NCBI GenBank assembly: GCA_033439255.1
Contig: CM065891.1
Location: forward strand, 1-64,000
Direction of reading: 5' to 3'
DNA length: 64,000 nucleotides
Source: Hericium rajendrae
Lineage: Eukaryota; Basidiomycota; Agaricomycetes; Russulales; Hericiaceae
The notes below the pieces were generated by a model that worked only from the letters and a program-made list of their open reading frames with translations, did not search any database and was not told the origin of the DNA. Below, piece by piece: positions 33,885 to 53,077 of the stretch. The position numbers were made by a program, and so were the translations under genes. Each line of letters begins with the position of its first letter. Within the stretch, counting starts at the first letter, position 1.

Positions 33885-33912
33885 GCAGAAGACAAGGGGG
33901 GCTCGGGATGTT
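33885..33912. repeat. Left TSD and TIR of transposon copy A
   Basis: Target duplication GCAGAAGA (33,885-33,892) followed by the 20-base TIR CAAGGGGGGCTCGGGATGTT (33,893-33,912). Copy A lies on the minus strand, so this is its 3' end. Confidence 0.9.
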
Positions 33913-34089
33913 GTAGGAAAACATATGGTACTTTTTTTCCGTAAGGCCCTGAGAGGCGACCTAGGTAGGTACGTAATCAGGAACATTACCATATTTGGAA
34001 AGATAAGATAAGATGAGATTCCCCGCATTGTCCCCGCATTGTCCCCACACTATAATGCGACGACACAACTCCGTTCGCTACGCCCTGCG

Positions 34090-34775
34090 TCATTTCCCCT
34101 TATGCCCTTCCTTACAAACGTTGCAGATCCACTTCGTACGTGGTGTGTCAAGATGAATACAATCCAAGTGGTACTGGAAGCAAGGATCAGTAAGTAATAT
34201 GCCATTGTCTTCATAGTCTAGGTACTCACCCATCGTGTTTCACAACTCGCCTTCATGCACTTCACGGTGCCTTCATCCTCTTCCAAGACACGTTCGCCAC
34301 AAAAGCACACCTTCACGTCTCGCAAGTCAGTCGGTTTTCGTTTGCGCTGAGGGCGATCGCTCGTAGTTGCCGTATCGGTGTGCGCTTTGAGCAACGGAAG
34401 TGCCGGTATATCTGCGTCTTGAGTTCTGCTATCAAGAGAAGTTGAAGGCATGGAAGTGAGTGCATTGTCGCTTTCCTGGTACGTGGATTCAGTTGCTTCT
34501 GCTGCATTGCCTTGAATAGCATCAATAAGAGTCGCATCAATATCATCCGCGGTCTCTGTCAAAGGTTGCTCGGCGTCTTCGAAGTGAGTGTTCTCTTCTT
34601 GCAAATATCCCTGCTGTTGGTCTTCGGCCTCATCCTGTCCGTGACCATGCCAGTCTGTTGTGCCAAAGTCATCATATTCTTTGTCCGTTTCATTTGTAGC
34701 CTCGCTGATCCTGCCGTCTACAGAATTTATGCTCATATTGTCTTCCGTATCACTGTTCGCTTCTTGACTGTTCAT
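34090..34775 (-). CDS. Transposon-borne PHD-finger protein (copy A), 209 aa
   Basis: Exons 34775-34230 and 34173-34090. The first ~150 residues are acidic and low-complexity (MNSQEANSDTEDNMSINSVD, then many Glu, Asp, Gln), with a basic QRKRKPTDLRD patch before the finger. The C-terminus has the Cys4-His-Cys3 order of a PHD finger: CFC, CMKASC, then WYHLDC, and across the intron KWICNVC. The W-YHLDC and KWICNVC spacing is close to ING/Yng-type PHD fingers, which read histone H3 lysine-4 methylation; the binding function here is inferred. It is the second gene of the transposon, downstream of and co-oriented with the transposase. Confidence 0.75.
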
Positions 34776-37700
34776 GCGCGGATGTCAGTTAGCAGACCGC
34801 TAGATTTCTAGAAGTTACTTATGTCAATACCAAGCGCGAGCTATGAGCTTCCGATACTATCAGAGGTGCGCCTGCATTCTTATTGCGCTTCTTCGTTTGC
34901 TTGTTGCGGTTCTGCCAGATTCGCTTCATCTCATGTACCTCAGAGATTACAATAGCCCATAGATTCTCGTATGACTTTAGAGGGACATTCGGGTGGGCGC
35001 GTTGGAAATGCATGCTCAAGTTGTACTTCCAGACCGCAGGGTCAGATTGAGCGCACAGCGGACAGCGCAGAGGCACGTTTGAGCACGGTGAGGTTTTCGA
35101 CGAGGTTGAAGCTACTCCATACGAAAAGTTGACCATGTTCTGACATGTACTCTTCTTTCGGTTGACAGATAGATTGCCATTTCGCCCTCTTGCTTGTTGC
35201 AGGAAAATCTGGCATAGCGAGAATGAGCGCAAGCATAAACCACATGGTTCCAATGTGCGATCAATAGTGACATCGTGAAGGACATGACTGCCGATATGCT
35301 CGAGGGCCCGTTGACCGGATTCGAAGGCAACAGAGGACAGGCAGTTCGGGCATGAGTTTGGAATTAAGTCACGCACCTCGTCGCTCCTTTCGGTGACGAA
35401 GCAAGCCTTCCCTAGTAAAATACCTCCATGAGTTGATTAGAAATATGAATTAGACCGGAGTTCACATACCCAATCGCTCGCGATACAGAAACTCCGCAAC
35501 CGTTTTGGTATGCGAAATCAATTTGATGTGGTTGATAGTCAGTCGGTCGTGGAGACTAGATGCCATGGCCATCAGAATCCCGCTTTCAAAGAGCATTCGA
35601 GGACGTCCGGGAATATGACAATCAAGGGGAGGATTAACTGGCTGCACGAGGATGCCCGGAACCTTGAACGTGAGCATCAGAGATCGTGCAGAGTGCCAAT
35701 CGTGCTTTAGAGAGGGGTCATCGTCTGAGTCTGTCACCGTCAAACTGACAAGTTGATACGAGATGATGACAGTCTTCTCCGAGAGAAGCTCCAAAGGGAT
35801 TTCATCGACAGGCCTTGAGTTGACATGAATGGCATTGACTTCACCGATGCATAGAAAGAGCTTCTGATCACATGAGAGGAGTGAGGCAATAGGATCATGA
35901 ATAAGGAGCAATGGACCGTGAGCGTCCAGTCCGCCGGTGCCGTTGCCGTCAACGAGGTATGAAGGGCCCGCGCTCGATGTCACTGACTTGTATCGGCCCT
36001 CTTGTTGCACCCTGCGCAGTCGGTCAGTTGAACTTGTCGTCTTATTGTACTTGAACCGGCTAGAAAGCGCTCGAGCTTTGTGGACCATGGTGCCATCACC
36101 ATTGATATCAACAGATCTTGAAATAGCTTACTACGACTGCCATCTCCATCAAGATCTGGTGCGTCGCCATCTGCTGCCATTTCCTCGAGCTCCTGCATGC
36201 CCTCAGTCGAATTTGCCATGCTCACATCTACCGCAGGCAGATGCTCTAGCGGGACCTCAAGCTCCTCTGTATCGTCTTCAGCGAGAGGTATATCGAAGAT
36301 TAATGTGCCTTCAGGTGCGAAAATGGAGGTGTCCTCGATGTTGTCAATATCATCAAGGACATCTGTGCAGAAGTGATGTAAGTCCTCGATCAGACACCGT
36401 CCTTGCTTCCAACAACTCGCAAGAGAGGCACTTTTAACACTGATATCTGCTCGCCACATTCGGGGGCTTATATGATCTGCCTGATCTGGTAGAATCGTCG
36501 AGTCTTTGGCGGCAACAGGAAGGTGAAGTCGGCGGGGGGACTTATTCCATTCGGGATGGCGGGCGAAAATGTTAGCAACTTCTGTCGTCCCAGTTAGGCG
36601 AAGGGCAAGCTGTAGGATATCCAGATTTGCATCATTTCCGACCATGGTTTGAAGTATGCCAAATAAGCTCTCTAGGCAGTCTGTACCTAACAAAATAATA
36701 AAGAACTCGCTGTCTGGGAGGTCCGCTTTGGCTTTCGCAACACAGAAATAGACATTTTTGATCATAGTCATGATGTCGATGTAGAGCATGGTCGGAAGGA
36801 AGTGGCTGCGAGCATTATTCCAGGTGTAGAGGACAAGCGTCAAATGTGCGGCGGTACTGAGAAGCTCGAGCTGCTCAACGAGGGACATATCAATGCAGAT
36901 ATAAGGATAGATCAGACAGTAGCAGAGGAGACCGAATATCCGCAGAGCTTTGCGTGCTGCGACAAAAGCTGGACGAGTATCTTTTGTCTCGGCCGACAGA
37001 GACCACAGGTCCTTCAGCATATTGTACGCAAGCAAAACATCTTGCTTATCTTCAGGATTGAAAAGCGATTGAATGTGTCTTGATGAGAGTCCAGCATCGG
37101 CAAGTTGAGCCTGAATGATCTGAGGGGTGAGCCAGAGACCGTCAACGAGAATGCCTTTCTCGTGCAAGAGTGCGTTTCGAAGCCGCTTGAAGACGTGCTT
37201 ATAATCCTTGTCGGCTGTGATGTCGTCTTCTCCAACGTGTAGGTCCATTAGTGCAAGAGGAGAACATCAGAAAAATATGCAGGTCCTACATAGTTCTACA
37301 TATCTTATATAGAAGTCATAGGCCCATAGCACCTCCCTTTACTACATAGCTCTCATAGCCCAAAGGGAGAGCTATGGAGTGCTATGAGATGCTATAGAGC
37401 TGAAGGGGGTGCTATGAACTGCTATCATAGCTATCATAGCTAACTATGAAGCTATTATAGGGTGTCTAGCTATTAAATCTATCAGAGCTATGTTACCTAC
37501 TTATGTTATACTCAATATGTAAACTTAGCACATCTATCAAAGTAATAAGATCTATCAAAACTATCAAAATTTTTGTTCAGCTATAAAGCAAATCTTATAT
37601 TCATCACTATTATTAAAACATTATATCAAAATATTATTTTGAAAGTAATTATTTAAATTTTATATTATCTTAATCAATCTCATATATAACAACATCATAA

Positions 37701-38138
37701 TCTATTATAATCTAATAATAGACTTTATAATTTACTACAACAATATACACTCACAACTCAAAAAGATAATAAATTATAAAAACCTACTTTAATCTAAAAA
37801 GCGAAAATCTATTAGTCAAGATATTAAATAACAAAGACACAGACACAAACACAATAAAAGATCAGCCCACCTTAACTTGAAAAGATAACAAAGACATAAC
37901 TATAGGGAACATTAGTAAAGAACATAGAATATTAAATTAAAGTCAACATACCTTAAAGATAATTGAGCAAAGAAACAATGAGCAAAGAAGAATCAGCGAG
38001 CAAAGAAAGCACAACAACGAGCAAAGAAGGAGCAACGGCGAGCAAGCAACAACGACGACGACGACGACGACGCCGACGTGGCGAGAGATGGTGGGGGTTA
38101 GAGAGCAAGAGGCAACGCGCGTCGCGCGAGCCTTATAT

Positions 38139-38166
38139 ACGATTCCCGGGCGAAGCCGGGAATCGT
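38139..38166. repeat. Hairpin 1 in the nested element
   Basis: Perfect inverted repeat: arms ACGATTCCCGG and CCGGGAATCGT around a six-base loop GCGAAG. Confidence 0.8.
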
Positions 38167-38591
38167 AGCTGCCGGGCGTTGCCGAGCGCCGCGTCAGAGA
38201 CTGAGTATTAGATTTCGTTAACTTGTGTTTGCTGATTCGTAGCGTACGGTCCATAAGTTAGACATGTAGCTCATATAATCGAATGGTATGAATGTATTTT
38301 ATATGGAGTCTTTTTTTCTAAATTATAGCGATTTTATCCGATTAACAATGTTTGAGATGTTTGAACTCGCGCAATCGGTAGCTCGAGCACTAAGGCGCCG
38401 CGTCGTTCGACTTGTCCTCCATACTTCTCAATGACTCCCATTCATCCCTCCACCTCGCTCTCCTCGTTCTCCTCGTTCTCCTCGTTCTCCTCGTTTCTCG
38501 TCAACTCGAAGGCCTGTAGGATTTGGTGGAAGCTTGGAGGGCTCAAGGTAAGTAAAAAAACACTTATATTCATCTCTATTGTACTGATTCG

Positions 38592-38624
38592 GAGAGTATC
38601 GCTCGTTATCTGAGCGATACTCTC
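38592..38624. repeat. Hairpin 2 in the nested element
   Basis: Perfect inverted repeat: arms GAGAGTATCGCTC and GAGCGATACTCTC around a seven-base loop GTTATCT. Confidence 0.85.
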
Positions 38625-38909
38625 ATTTCTCCTCGTTCTTTCGTGCCTCCACGCTCCCATGGCCGCCCTTTCCCCATTCCCGCCCTCCTCGCATCCTCGC
38701 CGCATCCATCGCATCGCTGCCGCGTCGCAACACGCGATGTTCTCCGCGTGTGGCACCGACGCCCCGTGGCCCAACCCAACGTCTCGCGCACGGCTTCAAC
38801 AGCCTGCGCCATCCCTCGCGCCTTCTGCACCGCTGCGGTAGCCTACACCCCACCTCAGCACCCCCGTACGGCCATGACAAGTTATGGCACCACGACACAA
38901 CAATGAACG

Positions 38910-38941
38910 TCGAGTCCCGTTGCCGTGGCAACGGGACTCGA
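38910..38941. repeat. Hairpin 3 in the nested element, near-perfect palindrome
   Basis: Arms TCGAGTCCCGTTGCC and GGCAACGGGACTCGA flank only two central bases (GT). In single strand this would form a very stable stem or cruciform. Confidence 0.85.
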
Positions 38942-39119
38942 GAGTCGTACGTTCCTGCACCCCCAACTGCGTGCGCAGGAGTGTACATCCTGGACGGCGT
39001 ATGCCTGCGTCCGTGCGCGGCCCCGGCTGCGCGTGCCTGTGTCCACCCACCTGGACTCTGACTGCGTGCACGACCGTGCGCGGTCTTGATACCCCCGACG
39101 AGCTACCCCGCCCTCTATG

Positions 39120-39620
39120 CCACGTCCGTGTCCCCGTCCTGCGTGCCACGTCCACGTCCCCTCCTCCGCGTCGTCTCGACGCCCTCCGCGTCGCATCCAC
39201 ACCTTCCGCGCAGCCTCGACGCCTTCCGCGCCGCCTTCGTGCCCTCCACGCCCTCCACGCCGGCTCCACGCTCTCCACGCCACGTCCTCTCCACGCCACG
39301 TCCACGCCTTCCGCGCCGCCTCCACGCCCTCTGCGTCGCCTCCGCGCCCTCCTGCGCCACGTCCGCAGCTTCCCCGCCCTCCGTGCCACGTCCACAGCCT
39401 CCGCGCAACCTAGGCGCCCTCCGCATCATTTCCACGCCCTCCACGTCGCTTCCCCGCCTTCCGCGCAGCCTCCGCGCCCTCCGCGTCGCTCCACGTCCTC
39501 CGCACAGGCTCCTCGCCCTCCGCGCCGCCTCTGCTGTGTCCGCGCCATGTCCGCGCCATCTCCGCCGTGTCCGCGCCATCTGCGCCGTGTCCGCGCCGTC
39601 TGCGCGGCGTCTCCGCCCTT
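39120..39620 (+). repeat. C-rich minisatellite in the nested element
   Basis: Some 500 bases built from variants of CCGCGCCNTCCNCGCC and GCGCCATCTGCGCCGTGTCC. All three plus frames stay open because stop codons are absent from the unit; this explains the long frames of biased Pro/Arg/Ser composition. Confidence 0.75.
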
Positions 39621-42600
39621 TGCCGCACCTCGTGTGCATCACCAGCCATGCGCGCGACTATAACGCCACGCGCACGCACCTCGGCAGCCACCTTATGGCA
39701 GTGCAGCAGGCAGCAGCCCGCGCGCGACGGCGCGGTCGCACATAAGGTGCTGATGCCACGAGCACAATGTCAGCGGGCTGCACACTACGTCAGCAGCCCG
39801 CGCGCGACTGCTACATGATGCGCGCAATGCTGCCCGAGTTGTATTCATAATTACAATTAGTTTCTGTAGCTGTAGACTAGTTCTTGTACTGTATTCCTAA
39901 ATATTAGTAAACCTTTTTTTGGAATTGGAAATCCCTCGTTTCATAAAATCAAAAAAATTGACTTGTGATTATGGAGTCTACCATATCTGACATAGGGCTG
40001 ATAGAGTCCATAGCAAGGCTATGATGGTGCATAGCTCTGATAGTAATGGCTTACAGGTACATAGGTCTATATACCTTCTGCCTGCTGCTATAAAGGCTAT
40101 CATAATGTGCATAGCTCTACATAGGTGCAAGGGTGGCTATATAGATCCCATAGCACTATGCTAGGACACATACTTTAGTACTGAGCTATATAGATTTCTA
40201 ATTTTTCAGATGAAAGCATGTTGTAGATGGAAGATGAGGGTGATAGCTCACGTTGAAAAGTCAATTGAATAAGTGCCTTTCCACGTCTAGCTTCACCATC
40301 GGAAGCCAGCGAGACGATGCGCATTCGCGTTAGGTCGCGCTTGCTATTGACTGCGTCAACGGTCGTCTGTATTACCTTTGCGTGCTGCTGAGCTTTCTCT
40401 TGCTTGCATGAACTGGAAACCAATATCGGCCGAGCACTATATAGGCGTGATGAAGGGGCCAATAGGCCAAGAGCACCGACCGTGGCCTAAAGCGAGTTGG
40501 ACGTGAGAATTACGCGCATTGCTTGAATGAGGTAATATCGACGACACACCTCTGAAGCCAGATGCACATTGCCACAATCCAAGTCGTCAAACAACACCTT
40601 CAGATCGTCAGGTGTTTTGAATGTGAGTGTTGTTTTGTGTCCATGTTCACGACAAATTCCTAAGAACTGATTACTCTTATCATCCCATCTCGGCCTCTTC
40701 TCCGTAGCAATCTCATCGAACATCACGACGCCATGAAAAACGATCGCGATTTTCATCGCGTCTGAGTCCTTCAAGCTCCCAAAGCTTGACTCCACATTCT
40801 TTTGAAGCTCTTGAAGACCCGGTTTTCCTGGAGATGGAAGGAGAAGAGGGACGGATGGTCGTTGACGGACAGTGTTAGCGGCAGGTGTCCCGAAGATGCG
40901 GTGAGCGATGTTCGCTATCCGAGCTCCACCCAGTCTAAGCAGAAGGACTGATTGCAGTTCGTCCTCCTCGTCGAAGCTCTTGGGATGGTATGTGCCATTT
41001 GCTGCCTTCTTGATGAGTTCTAATATCCCATGCATACCAAGATTTCGATTCATGCCTGCGCGAAGGACACGATCTATTCGTGGAATCTTGTTACTCGCTA
41101 AGGCGAGGATCATTTGCTTGTGCTGATCAATTACAGTGTCCCGCCCAACAAGTTTTCGAGCCTCGTTGAGGCGTCGAAGACGATACTGATCGATGACAGC
41201 ATTTTTGTGGCGCAGAAGGACAGTAAGGCCGCCAGATCCATAAAATGCGAATGGTGCATTCTCGTGCACCCCATTTAGTATTCTTTCTTGAATCCCAACT
41301 AATATTGAGTTGTCTTCTAGCTTGTTGCAAGCGGGACACTTCCGATAAGACGTGACTTTCCCCAAGCAAGCACGCGCCCGCAGAGTCAGCACGCCAGCCC
41401 GCAACTCAAGGTCCCATGGCAGATTTCTCATATCATGCAGCATGAAAGGATAGCTTCCAAGCGCGGTCTGGTCCGATGGGAAGGTAAGTCGATATCCTTC
41501 GCACTTTTGTGATGGCGGTATGACCTTGACAAGGATGACTTCAGCATCAGAATCTGAGCTCACGTTTGACACATGCAGATCGGCAGCACTCGGTGCTTCT
41601 GTTGCCGGAGATGGTGATGGCGGCAGCATGTTGCTAGATCGTTCGACGGCCCCAAGACCGGATGATAAGGTCTGTTCAGAAGATCTTCTTTCGTCGTCAG
41701 CGCGCAGCCTTGAAATACCACTGAACGTACTCACAGAAGTTCAATAGCTGCGATGATCACTTCCACCTTCCCCTCCAATAATGTGCTCTCAATCCCGTTC
41801 ACCACAATGAAGTGTTCAATGTACCGATACAGCCCCATCAAGCCCTGTTCGCCGGAATGTAGCTGGCGTGCAGCCTCTTTGACAGCTGTTCCATAGCCCA
41901 CCAGTCGGTTGAGCATGGGGTCAAAAATTCCCATGCATCTTCCGGAGGAAGAATCGGTGGATCGCTGGAGAACGCTGCGATCGGATCGCCATCAGATGCT
42001 TCGGGGATGATAGAAGGTAGGTGTGTGATTGCGGTCTTCAACTGATGTAAGAGCTTCTCTGCATGGCTGCAGGGTGTCGAGCGAGAGCGAAAAAGTGTAC
42101 GCGGTGCTTCATGAGATGACGGGGCACCTACACGAGATAAAACTGGCCGAGGAGCTGATACAGATGACGCAATAGGCTGCGCGATGCTGGTTTTCGTGGT
42201 GAAGAAGGAGGTGAGTGCTTGCTGGCCATGGCTAGATGCCTGCAGCTTCTTCTGCTTTGCCTGATTGCTGAGACATTTCTTTGATCTTAGGTGTGTCTTC
42301 GTGAAGTTGTTGATCCCCCCGTTGCCAACTGATATCTTCATCTGGCAATCCGGACATAGTACAAAGCCGTCGGAGTCCACGACGGTATCCATCTATATTC
42401 GGTTCAGTATGATGCTTGGAATAGTAGACACCCAATTGACCTGTATTTTGAGCTTGTCGCTTTTCTTTCGCAATCTTTCAAGATGTTTTCGAGATTTCAC
42501 TCGTCTCAACATGAGGCTCACATGTCTCAATACGGAAGGTCTGACCTAACATTAGGGTTTACATGATGCTGTCATATTTTTTCGTAAGGACACTATGACC

Positions 42601-42632
42601 CCAACTAACCCCCTACCCCCCGGTCGCGGGTT

Positions 42633-42660
42633 AACATCCCGAGCCCCCCTTGGCAGAAGA
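42633..42660. repeat. Right TIR and TSD of transposon copy A
   Basis: The complement of the 20-base TIR (42,633-42,652) is followed by the target duplication GCAGAAGA (42,653-42,660), identical to the left one. Confidence 0.9.
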
Positions 42661-45090: not shown

Positions 45091-45750
45091 TGCCCCCCTT
45101 ATATACATAGATGGGTTGTAATAGTATAGATTAGAGTACTTAGTTTTTTTGTAGTTAATACAACAATGAGAATATTGAATGATCTGATTTATTAAAATTG
45201 TGTGAAATAAACTGCTAACATTAGTAGTCTATGCTTAAGTTCATAGAACTACTATAACATGTTTGGTTACTACAGTAGAAAGATCCTCACTACAGGTCAC
45301 TACAGAAGCCACCGTAGAAGGGGGGGTTCCTACGAGTACTACAGGTACTATAGGATCTACAGGTAGCTACCGTAGACTACAGATTGCTACTGTAGCCAAT
45401 GGTAGCAACTTCGGTTTTTCCAGATAGGCTTGTGCGCTATATCAAGCGTTTGAACATTCTCCACCACGAGCTCACTGAATTCCATTCAACCCTGCAGGCC
45501 GCGGTGCCTGGTCTCATCCAGGTCATCTCCTGTGCAGAGAATCTCGCGTGGCTCAGAATCTGTAGCAGAGCCGAGAAACTCTTCCACCATGCACCTGCCC
45601 TTTTCGACAGTCTTTTCATCCATCCCCCTTCCCATAGCCTTGAACTGATTGGTATTGCAGCAGATTGGGACTGGCTGGCAAAGCAGCAATTTGCCGGCCT
45701 GCAGAATCTCAGTCTCGGATACATTGACAGATTCGAAGCCTATCCTGTCG

Positions 45751-45778
45751 ATTTACTCCAAGGGGGGCTCGGGATGTT
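45751..45778. repeat. Left TSD and TIR of transposon copy B
   Basis: Target duplication ATTTACTC (45,751-45,758), part of the F-box C coding sequence, followed by the TIR CAAGGGGGGCTCGGGATGTT (45,759-45,778). Confidence 0.92.
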
Positions 45779-46018
45779 AACCCGCGACCGGGGGGTAGGG
45801 GGTTAGTTGGGGTCATAGTGTCCTTACGAAAAAATATGACAGCATCATGTAAACCCTAATGTTAGGTCAGACCTTCCGTATTGAGACATGTGAGCCTCAT
45901 GTTGAGACGAGTGAAATCTCGAAAACATCTTGAAAGATTGCGAAAGAAAAGCGACAAGCTCAAAATACAGGTCAATTGGGTGTCTACTATTCCAAGCATC
46001 ATACTGAACCGAATATAG

Positions 46019-49000
46019 ATGGATACCGTCGTGGACTCCGACGGCTTTGTACTATGTCCGGATTGCCAGATGAAGATATCAGTTGGCAACGGGGGGATCA
46101 ACAACTTCACGAAGACACACCTAAGATCAAAGAAATGTCTCAGCAATCAGGCAAAGCAGAAGAAGCTGCAGGCATCTAGCCATGGCCAGCAAGCACTCAC
46201 CTCCTTCTTCACCACGAAAACCAGCATCGCGCAGCCTATTGCGTCATCTGTATCAGCTCCTCGGCCAGTTTTATCTCGTGTAGGTGCCCCGTCATCTCAT
46301 GAAGCACCGCGTACACTTTTTCGCTCTCGCTCGACACCCTGCAGCCATGCAGAGAAGCTCTTACATCAGTTGAAGACCGCAATCACACACCTACCTTCTA
46401 TCATCCCCGAAGCATCTGATGGCGATCCGATCGCAGCGTTCTCCAGCGATCCACCGATTCTTCCTCCGGAAGATGCATGGGAATTTTTTGACCCCATGCT
46501 CAACCGACTGGTGGGCTATGGAACAGCTGTCAAAGAGGCTGCACGCCAGCTACATTCCGGCGAACAGGGCTTGATGGGGCTGTATCGGTACATTGAACAC
46601 TTCATTGTGGTGAACGGGATTGAGAGCACATTATTGGAGGGGAAGGTGGAAGTGATCATCGCAGCTATTGAACTTCTGTGAGTACGTTCAGTGGTATTTC
46701 AAGGCTGCGCGCTGACGACGAAAGAAGATCTTCTGAACAGACCTTATCATCCGGTCTTGGGGCCGTCGAACGATCTAGCAACATGCTGCCGCCATCACCA
46801 TCTCCGGCAACAGAAGCACCGAGTGCTGCCGATCTGCATGTGTCAAACGTGAGCTCAGATTCTGATGCTGAAGTCATCCTTGTCAAGGTCATACCGCCAT
46901 CACAAAAGTGCGAAGGATATCGACTTACCTTCCCATCGGACCAGACCGCGCTTGGAAGCTATCCTTTCATGCTGCATGATATGAGAAATCTGCCATGGGA
47001 CCTTGAGTTGCGGGCTGGCGTGCTGACTCTGCGGGCGCGTGCTTGCTTGGGGAAAGTCACATCTTATCGGAAGTGTCCCGCTTGCAACAAGCTAGAAGAC
47101 AACTCAATATTAGTTGGGATTCAAGAAAGAATACTAAATGGGGTGCACGAGAATGCACCGTTCGCATTTTATGGATCTGGCGGCCTTACTGTCCTTCTGC
47201 GCCGCAAAAATGCCGTCATCGATCAGTATCGTCTTCGACGCCTCAATGAGGCTCGAAAACTTGTTGGGCGGGACACTGTAATTGATCAGCACAAGCAAAT
47301 GATCCTCGCCTTAGTGAGTAACAAGATTCCACGAATAGATCGTGTCCTTCGCGCAGGCATGAATCGAAATCTTGGTATGCATGGGATATTAGAACTCATC
47401 AAAAAGGCAGCAAATGGCACATACCATCCCAAGAGCTTCGACGAGGAGGACGAACTGCAATCGGTCCTTCTGCTTAGACTGGGTGGAGCTCGGATAGTGA
47501 ACATTGCTCACCGCATCTTTGGGACACCTGCCGCTAACACTGTCCGTCAACGACCATCCGTCCCTCTTCTCCTTCCATCTCCAGGAAAACCGGGTCTTCA
47601 AGAGCTTCAAAAGAATGTGGAGTCAAGCTTTGGGAGCTTGAAGGACTCAGACGCGATGAAAATTGCGATCGTTTTTCATGGCGTCGTGATGTTCGATGAG
47701 ATTGCTACGGAGAAGAGGCCGAGATGGGATGATAAGAGTAATCAGTTCTTAGGAATTTGTCGTGAACATGGACACAAAACAACACTCACATTCGAAACAC
47801 CTGACGATCTGAAGGTGTTGTTTGATGACTTGGATTGTGGCGATGTGCATCTGGCTTCAGAGGTGCGTTGTCGATATTACCTCATTCAAGCAATGCGCGT
47901 AATTCTCACGTCCAACTCGCTTTAGGCCACGGTCGGCGCTCTTGGCCTATTGGCCCCTTCATCATGCCTATATAGTGCTCGGCCGATATTGGTTTCCGGT
48001 TCATGCAAGCAAGAGAAAGCTCAGCAGCACGCAAAGGTAATACAGACGACCGTTGACGCAGTCAATAGCAAGCGCGACCTAACGCGAACGCGCATCATCT
48101 CGCTGGCTTCCGATGGTGAAGCTAGATGTGGAAAGGCACTTATTCAATTGACTTTTCAACGTGAGCTATCACCCTCATCTTCCATCTACAACATGCTTTC
48201 TCCTCTTGCGCTAATGGACCTACACATTGGAGAAGATGACATCACAGCCGACAAGGATTACAAGCACGTCTTCAAGCGGCTTCGAAACGCACTCTTGTGT
48301 GAGAAAGGCATTCTCGTTGACGGTCTCTGGCTCACCCCTCAGATCATTCAGGCTCAACTTGCCGATGCTGGACTCTCATCAAGACACATTCAATCGCTTT
48401 TCAATCCTAAAGATAAGCAAGATGTTTTGCTTGTGTACAATATGCTGAAGGACCTGTGGTCTCTGTTGGCCGAGACAAAAGATACTCATCCAGCTTTTGT
48501 CGCAGCACGCAAAGCTCTGCGGATATTCGGTCTCCTCTGCTACTGTCTGATCTATCCTTATATCTGCATTGATATGTCCCTCGTTGAGCAGCTCGAGCTT
48601 CTCAGTACCGCCGCACATTTGACGCTTGTCCTCTACACCTGGAATAATGCTCGCAGCCACTTCCTTCCGACCATGCTCTACATCGACATCATGACTATGA
48701 TCAAAAATGTCTATTTCTGTGTTGCGAAAGCCAAAGCGGACCTCCCAGACAGCGAGTTCTTTATTATTTTGTTAGGTACAGACTGCCTAGAGAGCTTATT
48801 TGGCATACTTCAAACCATGGTCGGAAATGATGCAAATCTGGATATCCTACAGCTTGCCCTTCGCCTAACTGGGACGACAGAAGTTGCTAACATTTTCGCC
48901 CGCCATCCCGAATGGAATAAGTCCCCCCGCCGACTTCACCTTCCTGTTGCCGCCAAAGACTCGACGATTCTACCAGATCAGGCAGATCATATAAGCCCCC

Positions 49001-50644
49001 GAATGTGGCGAGCAGATATCAGTGTTAAAAGTGCCTCTCTTGCGAGTTGTTGGAAGCAAGGACGGTGTCTGATCGAGGACTTACATCACTTCTGCACAGA
49101 TGTCCTTGATGATATTGACAACATCGAGGACACCTCCATTTTCGCACCTGAAGGCACATTAATCTTCGATATACCTCTCGCTGAAGACGATACAGAGGAG
49201 CTTGAGGTCCCGCTAGAGCATCTGCCTGCGGTAGATGTGAGCATGGCAAATTCGACTGAGGGCATGCAGGAGCTCGAGGAAATGGCAGCAGATGGCGACG
49301 CACCAGATCTTGATGGAGATGGCAGTCGTAGTAAGCTATTTCCAAGATCTGTTGATATCAATGGTGATGGCACCATGGTCCACAAAGCTCGAGCGCTTTC
49401 TAGCCGGTTCAAGTACAATAAGACGACAAGTTCAACTGACCGACTGCGCAGGGTGCAACAAGAGGGCCGATACAAGTCAGTGACATCGAGCGCGGGCCCT
49501 TCATACCTCGTTGACGGCAACGGCACCGGCGGACTGGACGCTCACGGTCCATTGCTCCTTATTCATGATCCTATTGCCTCACTCCTCTCATGTGATCAGA
49601 AGCTCTTTCTATGCATCGGTGAAGTCAATGCCATTCATGTCAACTCAAGGCCTGTCGATGAAATCCCTTTGGAGCTTCTCTCGGAGAAGACTGTCATCAT
49701 CTCGTATCAACTTGTCAGTTTGACGGTGACAGACTCAGACGATGACCCCTCTCTAAAGCACGATTGGCACTCTGCACGATCTCTGATGCTCACGTTCAAG
49801 GTTCCGGGCATCCTCGTGCAGCCAGTTAATCCTCCCCTTGATTGTCATATTCCCGGACGTCCTCGAATGCTCTTTGAAAGCGGGATTCTGATGGCCATGG
49901 CATCTAGTCTCCACGACCGACTGACTATCAACCACATCAAATTGATTTCGCATACCAAAACGGTTGCGGAGTTTCTGTATCGCGAGCGATTGGGTATGTG
50001 AACTCCGGTCTAATTCATATTTCTAATCAACTCATGGAGGTATTTTACTAGGGAAGGCTTGCTTCGTCACCGAAAGGAGCGACGAGGTGCGTGACTTAAT
50101 TCCAAACTCATGCCCGAACTGCCTGTCCTCTGTTGCCTTCGAATCCGGTCAACGGGCCCTCGAGCATATCGGCAGTCATGTCCTTCACGATGTCACTATT
50201 GATCGCACATTGGAACCATGTGGTTTATGCTTGCGCTCATTCTCGCTATGCCAGATTTTCCTGCAACAAGCAAGAGGGCGAAATGGCAATCTATCTGTCA
50301 ACCGAAAGAAGAGTACATGTCAGAACATGGTCAACTTTTCGTATGGAGTAGCTTCAACCTCGTCGAAAACCTCACCGTGCTCAAACGTGCCTCTGCGCTG
50401 TCCGCTGTGCGCTCAATCTGACCCTGCGGTCTGGAAGTACAACTTGAGCATGCATTTCCAACGCGCCCACCCGAATGTCCCTCTAAAGTCATACGAGAAT
50501 CTATGGGCTATTGTAATCTCTGAGGTACATGAGATGAAGCGAATCTGGCAGAACCGCAACAAGCAAACGAAGAAGCGCAATAAGAATGCAGGCGCACCTC
50601 TGATAGTATCGGAAGCTCATAGCTCGCGCTTGGTATTGACATAA
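46019..50644 (+). CDS. P-element/hAT-like transposase, about 1,485 aa, apparently intact
   Basis: Four exons: 46019-46677, 46725-47862, 47926-49993, 50052-50644 (4,458 nt). Introns are 47, 63 and 58 nt with GTGAGT, GTGCGT and GTATGT donors; phases agree at every junction. The N-terminus has a BED-like C2HC finger (C13, C16, H34, C40). Candidate RNase H-like catalytic residues are D662 (SLASDGEA), D708 or D710 (DKDYKHVFKRLRN) and E888 (TDCLESLFG), with a long insertion between the last two, as in P/THAP9 and hAT enzymes. An acidic stretch and a C-terminal zinc-finger region (SCPNCLSS, then CGLCLRSFSLC, RCPLCAQS) follow. It is nuclear and cuts and rejoins the transposon ends. A short basic frame upstream (45,899) could be an extra 5' exon. 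Confidence 0.75.
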
Positions 50645-50687
50645 GTAACTTCTAGAAATCTAGCGGTCTGCTAACTGACATCCGCGC

Positions 50688-51334
50688 ATGAACAGTCAAG
50701 AAGCGAACAGTGATACGGAAGACAATATGAGCATAAATTCTGTAGACGGCAGGATCAGCGAGGCTACAAATGAAACGGACAAAGAATATGATGACTTTGG
50801 CACAACAGACTGGCATGGTCACGGACAGGATGAGGCCGAAGACCAACAGCAGGGATATTTGCAAGAAGAGAACACTCACTTCGAAGATGCCGAGCAACCT
50901 TTGACAGAGACCGTGGATGATATTGATGCGACTCTTATTGATGCTATTCAAGGCAATGCAGCAGAAGCAACTGAATCCACGTACCAGGAAAGCGACAATG
51001 TGCTCACTTCCATGCCTTCAACTTCTCTTGATAGCAGAACTCAAGACGCAGATATACCGGCACTTCCGTTGCCCAAAGCGCACACCGATACGGCAACTAC
51101 GAGCGATCGCCCTCAGCGCAAACGAAAACCGACTGACTTGCGAGACATGAAGGTGTGCTTTTGTGGCGAACGTGTCTTGGAAGAGGATGAAGGCACCGTG
51201 AAGTGCATGAAGGCGAGTTGTGAAACACGATGGGTGAGTACCTAGACTACGAAGACAATGGCATATTACTTACTGATCCTTGCTTCCAGTACCACTTGGA
51301 TTGTATTCATCTTGACACACCACGTACGAAGTAG
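50688..51334 (+). CDS. Transposon-borne PHD-finger protein (copy B), truncated
   Basis: Exons 50688-51233 and 51290-51334. It is the same gene as the 209-aa PHD protein of copy A. At 51,332 copy B reads TAG where copy A reads TGG, so the product stops after DTPRTK and lacks the last zinc-ligand pair (WICNVC) of the finger. The finger would probably not fold. Other differences from copy A are a few substitutions. Confidence 0.7.
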
Positions 51335-51551
51335 ATCTGCAACATTTGTAAGGAAGGGCATAAGGGGAAATGACGCAGGGCGTAGCGAACGGAGTTGTGG
51401 TCATCGCATTATAGTGTGGGGACAATGCGGGGACAATGCAGGGAATCTCATCTTATCTTATCTTTCCAAATATGGTAATGTTCCTGATTACGTACCTACC
51501 TAGGTCGCCTCTCAGGGCCTTACGGAAAAAAAGTACCATATGTTTTCCTAC

Positions 51552-51579
51552 AACATCCCGAGCCCCCCTTGATTTACTC
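51552..51579. repeat. Right TIR and TSD of transposon copy B
   Basis: The complement of the TIR (51,552-51,571) is followed by ATTTACTC (51,572-51,579), after which the F-box C reading frame resumes. Confidence 0.92.
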
Positions 51580-53077
51580 GCTATCATCTCCGCATCAGCT
51601 CCAAATTTGGAGAGTATGCATCTCAGAGGGACGTTAGGTGTCTTGCCGCTCAGGTTTACAGAAGGACGCACACCGTGTCCGACGTTACGCATGTTATCAA
51701 TAGCCTGGGTGGTGCTGTTTCTCCCAGACCTCACAGAGGCATTCCCCAATGTGCAATTTATCCGGTGCCACAGCATCCGCATGTCGATAAATAGGCCTGC
51801 AACAATGCTTTCTGGATCTATGACGGGCACATCTCCAGAGCTCCTCGGCCTGGACGGTGACCTCGAAAGCGTGGTATCACTCGGGTCGCATTATATGATC
51901 CGCGTGATTCGGATCCAGAGCCGTATAAGAATTCTGCCCCAATTCACGCAGCTGGCAACTGCACTTGCATGGGACTCATTGTGCAGTCTTTCGCTCCGGA
52001 TGATGTTGTATGTAGGGGAGGGTCCCTGGGACCATAGTGGCATTCCTGCAGAGCAGTTCTTCAGGGAGATCTGCTGCATGGCACCGCAGCTCAAGTTCTT
52101 TGACCTCAACACGGACATTGTGCCAGATGTCCCAGATAGTCCAACTGCAGAATTGCACCGGGCAGCCAATCACTCGCATGTAGGTTGCTTTGCTATGATC
52201 ACTGAAGAAACTTACTTATTGCCTCCCTCTCCTGCTTAGGCTTATGCGGCAGCTTGGCTGCACTTGGCATGCTTGGACGACCTGCGATGTTTGCGTCTGG
52301 AGTTTAGACCTTACACGCCAGTCAGCGTCAGCACCGCCATGCACATTCTGTCGAATCTGCCGCGCGTCAGATTTTTTGTCCTGGTAAGACATCCGGCGGT
52401 GGGTGATATATGCCTGGAGCGTCCAGAAACTGTTACGACTCACGCAGAAGATGGATTCAATGCCATTGAACTTGAGCTTAGCTCGAAGGAACTGGCAAGG
52501 CGACTGGAGTGGTACTGTCTTGTGGGCTCGGACTCTCGACTGGAAGGGGTCACGGACTGGTTGTCCTCCGTTTCGAGTTTGAGCTATGTTTAGACTGAAT
52601 GGATGCTGCTTGATACGGCCGCGGTATGTGCGGCGTCATCCGGTGTCTGTCTGGTATCGGTGGTTTCGAACAAGGACTGATACATCAATAAGTATAAGAT
52701 CGCTCGAGTACATTCTATTTCATATGTGGACATATGGACATGTGGTTCGCCTTCATGTGCGTCTAGCCTTTTTAAATCGTTAAAGGTCTACTCTCTCCCC
52801 AAGAAATCCCTTCCATCAATATAGGATCGTATCTATATGTCATGCTCCTCTGCCTCATGGAAATGGCTTCAAGATCCCATCCTATTTTCCCTCCGTAGAG
52901 GCTTCCAGAATTGTGAGATCGCTGCATCCGCAAGGCTGACGGTCTACAAATCGGACAAGCCATTATGCATTACTGCCCATGGGCAGGCACGGGTGGCTAG
53001 GCAAATCGGCAATCGGTAACATAGATCGGCAGTGCCGCTGCTGAACAAGCATATCCCAGTCAATGGTGTGACTTTCG

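Follow-up and report, generated by a model that had tools for sequence, protein, structure and literature searches.

The first 64,000 nucleotides of contig CM065891.1 of the basidiomycete Hericium rajendrae (assembly GCA_033439255.1), hereafter the window, hold a DNA transposon whose transposase seems, from comparison of its copies, to have continued through an acidic linker into an ING-type PHD finger, all forming one protein of ~1,700 amino acids (aa). In the window, this tail looks like a second gene but seems to be the severed end of the first. We give about even odds (~0.5) to the reading that the tail would serve chromatin-gated target capture, i.e., that it would be a chromatin-sensing and possibly autoinhibitory module laid out like that of RAG2. 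The genome searched comprises 46.8 Mb in 19 contigs, with the window on contig C14, and six copies of the element (A–F) were compared, of which A and B lie in the window.

A transposase that seems to end in a PHD finger

Copy B spans 5,813 bp (45759–51571) between 20-bp terminal inverted repeats (TIRs) that are complementary at 20/20 bases, flanked on both sides by the 8-bp target-site duplication (TSD) ATTTACTC. Four copies of the TIR 20-mer were counted in the window, against a mean of 0.00 in shuffled sequences. The element is best explained as a cut-and-paste DNA transposon. An earlier sequence-only reading of the window had proposed a TIR element with 8-bp duplications and, within it, two co-oriented genes, one for a spliced transposase of ~1,485 aa and one for an acidic protein ending in a PHD finger. 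The element and its parts were recovered: the spliced transposase open reading frame (ORF) of copy B is 1,485 aa long, and an acidic ORF with a C4HC3 finger follows on the same strand. The division into two genes is no longer favored once the copies are compared.

In copy C, the transposase frame runs through ...SSRLVLT to a donor (GAC/GTAGGT, the slash marking the splice site) and a 61-bp phase-2 intron containing CTAACTGA and ending in AACAG/T, which would lead in frame into linker and PHD finger. Copy D, placed and spliced by hand, has AAG/GTACGC ... ACAG/T in the same phase; copy E keeps donor and phase (AAG/GTATGA ... ATAG/A), as does copy F (GG/GTATGT), in which an insertion separates the PHD exon. 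If spliced, C would encode 1,695–1,696 aa (one of its acceptors could lie at either of two sites 3 nt apart). The spliced product of D would be 1,707 aa long, or 1,688 aa should 57 nt with homology to intron 3 be spliced out as well, and neither copy has an internal stop. In A and B, the donor position reads AT instead of GT, and because of this the frame stops (in B, exon 4 continues to TAA at 50642–50644) and the product ends at 1,485 aa. On this comparison, the tail of A and B seems to be cut off through loss of the splice donor, and both are decayed members of the family. A +1 frameshift at the A/B stop and a 4-nt insertion were considered as well, and became needless once the GT donor of C was found at the homologous place.

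Two separate genes, one for a transposase and one for a PHD protein, are quite improbable on this evidence. The transposase frame of A and B does end, and an ATG at 50688–50690 opens an acidic ORF of 209 aa; that ATG, however, falls inside the intron and is replaced by CCG in C and AAT in D, and the first in-frame ATG of C stands ~100 codons into exon 5, past most of a linker that is under purifying selection. A free-standing PHD gene was rejected because of this unconserved start position and of the in-frame intron of C and D, with the same donor kept in E and F. Several points nevertheless weigh against a single protein. In copy D, a further ATG in frame stands four codons upstream (MGTDCDNNS), still intronic and just before the acceptor, and copy E has one ~11 codons into exon 5, so that separate translation is possible in these two copies. 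We infer the splicing of the PHD exons to the transposase from sequence. Finally, A and B carry TSDs and have thus moved, yet both are without the transposase–PHD link; they may have moved before the link was lost, in trans, or without need of the tail.

Selection on the tail and decay of copies

Substitution patterns point to purifying selection on the tail, which two added 3′ exons (5 and 6) would encode. Between B and C, the ratio of non-synonymous to synonymous substitution rates (dN/dS) was 0.27 for exon 5 (bootstrap 0.15–0.45) and ~0.11 for its basic patch and first PHD half (5 non-synonymous and 9 synonymous, 14 changes in all), next to 0.13 for the core and 0.09 for exon 4, and exon 6 gave 0.15 between A and C (17 changes). 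At the donor, A and B share a CpG-type change (CG to CA relative to C), and CpG transitions make up 20/26 of the polarized private changes in B and 9/17 in A, with two changes unassigned. Because the private changes of B are mostly CpG transitions, the copies are suggested to carry cytosine methylation. The finger of B is itself interrupted by a TAG (51332–51334) where A and C have TGG.

Divergence between B and C (locus L015) also steps up sharply near the start of the PHD module, from 7.2% up to ~50625 to 19.1% beyond, a step reached in 0/200 permutations. The synonymous rate is higher in exons 4–5 than in the core, but no such rise is seen in the PHD intron (6 of 58) or over the final 63 bp. 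This pattern would be compatible with either module exchange or a different constraint.

An ING-type finger with an altered pocket

All eight zinc ligands (C4HC3, PHD spacing) are invariant in the five fingers that could be compared (A, C, D, E, and F). When a profile of these five was run against the PDB, 20/20 sequences at E ≤ 0.01 belonged to the ING family (best 1.4e-9), and Pfam PHD matched the finger of D at E = 5.6e-5 and the other four at 0.00073 to 0.0055. By profile, the finger is therefore of the ING type, as the sequence-only reading had claimed. The motifs which that reading listed (CFC / CMKASC / YHLDC / KWICNVC) are present in copy A, on the minus strand, but not intact within 45759–51571, i.e., in copy B, where the TAG lies inside the finger. 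Ahead of the finger lies an acidic linker of ~140 residues, 27–29% of them aspartate or glutamate in C and D, and a basic patch that is present in A, C, D, and E and not clearly in F (in copy B, RPQRKRK at 51108–51128, with the first PHD Cys codon at 51156).

Relative to the ING fingers (ING1-5, Pho23, Yng1/2), the order of zinc ligands and the profile are the same, but the element has two to three extra residues between the second and third Cys compared to ING4. Four further residues recur in the four ING alignments shown, namely a Tyr preceding the first Cys, a Met, an Asp that follows the third Cys, and a Trp, positions which we take to form the pocket for trimethylated lysine 4 of histone H3 (H3K4me3). 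Only the Trp is kept in the element: Tyr, Met, and Asp are replaced in 5/5 fingers, with V/V/E/N/L at the Tyr position and M/M/A/G/K at the Asp position of C, A, D, E, and F, respectively. Because three of the four compared positions are changed, reading of H3K4me3 by this finger is doubtful, and the earlier suggestion of an H3K4 reader is weakened even though the ING-like profile behind it stands.

The finger is probably a gain of one transposon clade

A genome search with the 691-aa core exon returned 22 matches in ~12 places, i.e., copies A–F and six distant places at 26–43% identity (G on C12, H on C14, K on C6, and others on C17, on C18, and at C12:2210343). Within the clade, identity to the core exon falls to 68% in D (contig C12, TSD GATATATC), 65% in E (contig C11), and 67, 55, and, if it belongs, 43% in the pieces of the fragmented copy F (contig C1). 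Even at core identities down to 55–68%, the finger lies downstream of the transposase in 6/6 clade copies (F in fragments, B with its second half stopped), which bears out the pairing of PHD and transposase that the sequence-only reading had claimed.

The spliced finger of C found 18 matches in the genome, two each in nine places: copies A–F and three short non-autonomous derivatives, one on C10 and two on C3. Two of these derivatives, sequenced over their whole length, measure 1,152 bp and have 8-bp TSDs, which were thus seen in A, B, C, D, and these two derivatives, and the finger is broken in 3/3 derivatives (stop in the basic patch, first Cys to Tyr). Among the best candidates, which alone were scored, the same search gave no match outside the transposon family at E ≤ 10. 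Further PHD fingers are encoded elsewhere in the genome (26 matches to Pfam, E ≤ 1), and since the finger of the element matches none of them, it is not just another of their number.

For three of the six distant relatives (G, H, and K, ~30% identity), no PHD pattern was found in the 3′ DNA examined, which covers the transposase stop and at least 2 kb beyond for G and H, the stop of K not being pinned down. When applied to the clade copies, the same patterns recover the finger in both halves from A, C, D, E, and F; from B, they recover its first half. Because G, H, and K show no finger, the tail was probably, and most simply, added in the ancestor of A–F, loss in the others being the alternative. 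The sequence-only reading had held that absence of the finger from related elements, or a close match to a host gene, would point to a one-off capture: these three relatives show none, but its presence in 6/6 clade copies and the lack of a match outside the family among the candidates scored speak the other way, and in this genome we see no sign of a recent one-off capture from the host.

Affinities of the transposase

Aligned transposases share the order D...D...D(2)H...E (FDE/VDN/IDG, SDG/TDG, DYKH/DLKH/DPKH, RLE), as in a DDE-type enzyme, and 226 residues separate the second D from the E in copy C. The P element makes 8-bp TSDs, as does the element described here, and a [C/D](2)H motif may not be unique to the P superfamily. 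For that superfamily, the cited part of PMC8230255 gives as signature a DDE triad with [C/D](2)H after the second D, and for DmTNP a spacing of 228 residues (D303 to E531). Compared to the P element and THAP9, the present protein thus has the same TSD length, motif order, and near-identical spacing, but differs in its ~1,700 aa with a PHD tail. Neither P/THAP9 nor the THAP N-terminal domain was matched in Pfam, and a PDB profile search yielded three weak matches, all to ZCCHC8. As to the GTP-binding insertion domain of the P superfamily, the predicted model contains a helical insertion whose best weak matches are RAG1/Transib.

With the hAT superfamily, the element shares an 8-bp TSD (PMC12730594, in the part cited), short TIRs starting with CA, and, near the start of exon 1, a BED-like/C2HC pattern (CPDC...H...C, named by eye); Pfam gave no hAT profile match, including to the hAT C-terminal dimerization domain. 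Likewise, Pfam matched no KDZ transposase profile and no TET/JBP gene in the full protein of C, and no Mutator-like element (MULE) profile or kelch domain was matched in the element protein. RAG-like elements have a 5-bp duplication and a second gene with kelch and PHD domains; the present element has an 8-bp TSD and, it appears, one protein only, in which no kelch domain was matched. A beta-rich domain after the catalytic core (L015 4539–5204 and homologues), also present in the PHD-less relatives, has weak Tudor/SAWADEE/PWWP-like fold matches.

Known systems and possible functions of the tail

Transposases that carry a PHD finger, or that work with a protein carrying one, have been described before, so the idea of such a finger is not new. 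In vertebrate RAG2, as in the element, an acidic hinge precedes a C-terminal PHD finger in a transposon-derived recombinase system, but the RAG2 finger belongs to a separate, kelch-propeller protein, compared to an ING-type finger on the transposase itself and an 8-bp TSD here. According to the part of a preprint cited (PMC11844651), hinge and PHD of RAG2 block target DNA and the tail recruits RAG to H3K4me3; absent H3K4me3, the tail occupies the target-DNA site, and a long H3K4me3 peptide releases it, raising transposition 22-fold. Invertebrate RAG2L proteins, except in amphioxus, have a C-terminal PHD finger and, as described in the parts cited, no acidic linker (PMC7204232, PMC11844651). 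A C-terminal PHD-like or cross-brace finger on the transposase is likewise found in the cysteine-rich domain (CRD) of piggyBac (PB), Pgm, and Tpb2, of which, in the parts cited, that of Tpb2 recognizes the H3 tail when methylated, that of Pgm has weak affinity for H3 regardless of methylation, and that of PB binds DNA (PMC8086355, PMC3861120); these differ in transposase and TSD, and the finger of the present element is found in one clade only. Rehavkus, which is Mutator-like, also has a PHD finger in its transposase, but with a 9-bp TSD, a minisatellite before the 3′ TIR, and arthropod or annelid hosts (PMC6446971, in the part cited), compared to the lack of a MULE match here. Fungal DNA transposons of the KDZ, hAT7, IS3EU, and PHISTA groups carry TET/JBP as an epigenetic module, there as separate enzyme genes according to the part cited (PMC12730594), compared to a reader-like domain on the transposase in this element. 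Among the matches listed from open-license literature, an ING-type PHD finger on a DNA transposase with 8-bp TSDs was not found.

In chromatin-gated target capture, the reading that we prefer, the acidic linker would dock on the transposase and the PHD finger on a histone tail, and a suitable nucleosome nearby would favor or release target capture, as reported for the hinge and PHD of RAG2. Since the finger does not have the H3K4me3 pocket of ING proteins, it may bind H3 in some other state. Chromatin sensing is a function that we infer by analogy with these systems. A broader version would have a chromatin-gated transposase evolved independently of RAG, in which the acidic hinge and ING-type tail would stand beside a Tudor/PWWP-like barrel (a weak fold hint) and integration would be licensed by nucleosome state; we hold this to be unlikely, if well above negligible. 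Beyond the changed pocket, several observations count against the preferred reading: none of the five fingers reaches the curated Pfam PF00628 cut-off of 24 bits (17.1–23.5), full-length C lists only PHD_NSD in Pfam (E = 1.9), over the whole of exon 5, D and E show no more than 24–34% identity to the remaining copies, E and F are decayed by in-frame stops and insertions, and all copies come from one genome.

Ranked next is binding of transposon ends or dimerization by the PHD-like finger, without histone reading, in the manner of the piggyBac CRD. Such a role fits the changed ING positions and the basic patch before most fingers, and the PB CRD, a PHD-like cross-brace fold, binds a repeated motif at transposon ends (PMC8086355, in the part cited); the ING-like profile and the lack of such a finger in G, H, and K argue against it, and we consider it rather unlikely, though the nearest rival. 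An anti-silencing tail, which would maintain expression of the element or protect it from silent chromatin without choosing targets, as TET/JBP possibly do, is less probable still. The CpG-transition decay of B suggests methylated copies, and several fungal DNA transposons carry TET/JBP genes (PMC12730594, in the part cited), but a finger that is part of the transposase can act only at the site of that enzyme, and in the protein encoded by C, Pfam reveals no enzymatic domain. The least probable account is a functionless passenger fragment of a host ING-like gene: the derivatives do keep a broken finger, but purifying selection on the tail, zinc ligands retained in 5/5 diverged copies, and the lack of a match outside the family among the candidates scored (E ≤ 10) all speak against it. 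With its finger-bearing clade and finger-less distant relatives, the same genome offers a natural with/without comparison of tail function, and an ING-type finger on a transposase with 8-bp TSDs bears on why RAG2 gained an acidic hinge and a PHD finger.

Coordinates and neighboring elements

The features are collected in Table 1. The acceptor of exon 2 was picked since B, C, and D all have an in-frame one similarly placed; an alternative 3 nt downstream is equally possible.

Table 1 Features of the transposon copies; positions refer to the window unless a contig is named.
Feature	Position	Strand	Remark
Left TSD, copy B, 8 bp, ATTTACTC	45751–45758	.	Flank sequence
Left TIR, copy B, 20 bp	45759–45778	+	100% complementary to 51552–51571
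Transposase exon 1	46019–46677	+	ORF; donor GTGAGT at same place in B, C, D
Exon 2	46725–47862	+	Probable first catalytic Asp in FDEIATE
Exon 3, core	47926–49993	+	Probable second Asp (ASDGE), D(2)H motif (DYKH), probable Glu (GTDxLE)
Exon 4, C2H2-like finger region, to lost-donor position	50052–50640	+	Splice comparison
Lost splice donor	50641–50642	+	AT in A, B; GT in C, D, E, F
Exon 5: acidic linker, basic patch RPQRKRK, first PHD half	50696–51233	+	Acceptor ACAG/T in A–D
Exon 6, second PHD half (YHLDC...WxCxxC)	51290–51349	+	TAG 51332–51334 truncates finger in copy B
Right TIR, copy B	51552–51571	-	Pairs with left TIR
Right TSD, copy B, 8 bp, ATTTACTC	51572–51579	.	Flank sequence
Copy A, TSD GCAGAAGA on both sides	33893–42652	-	~99% identical to B outside insert; PHD exons within 34081–34355
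Insert in copy A, 2.9 kb, ends CATCTGAAAAAT / ATTTTTCTGATG	37265–40212	.	Comparison of copies
Copy C, TSD CAAGCATG	Contig C1 649663–655484 (L015)		~91% identical to B

Besides its insert, copy A has a 1-bp deletion. The insert holds GC-rich repeat units of ~20 bp, and pieces 73–88% similar to it occur at the loci of E, F, K, C17, and C12:2210343 and near elements on C8, as if it were a non-autonomous element that often lands in these transposons. The elements on C8 are two of 977 bp and of one sequence (L017 1855–2831; L018 5767–6743) with the same type of TIR and an interior without PHD or transposase, and matching 8-bp flanks remain in only one of the two. Finally, the insertion of copy B splits an open frame (45396–52239), and with the element removed, the site encodes 254 aa of a gene that resembles, by eye, a leucine-rich repeat/F-box gene.

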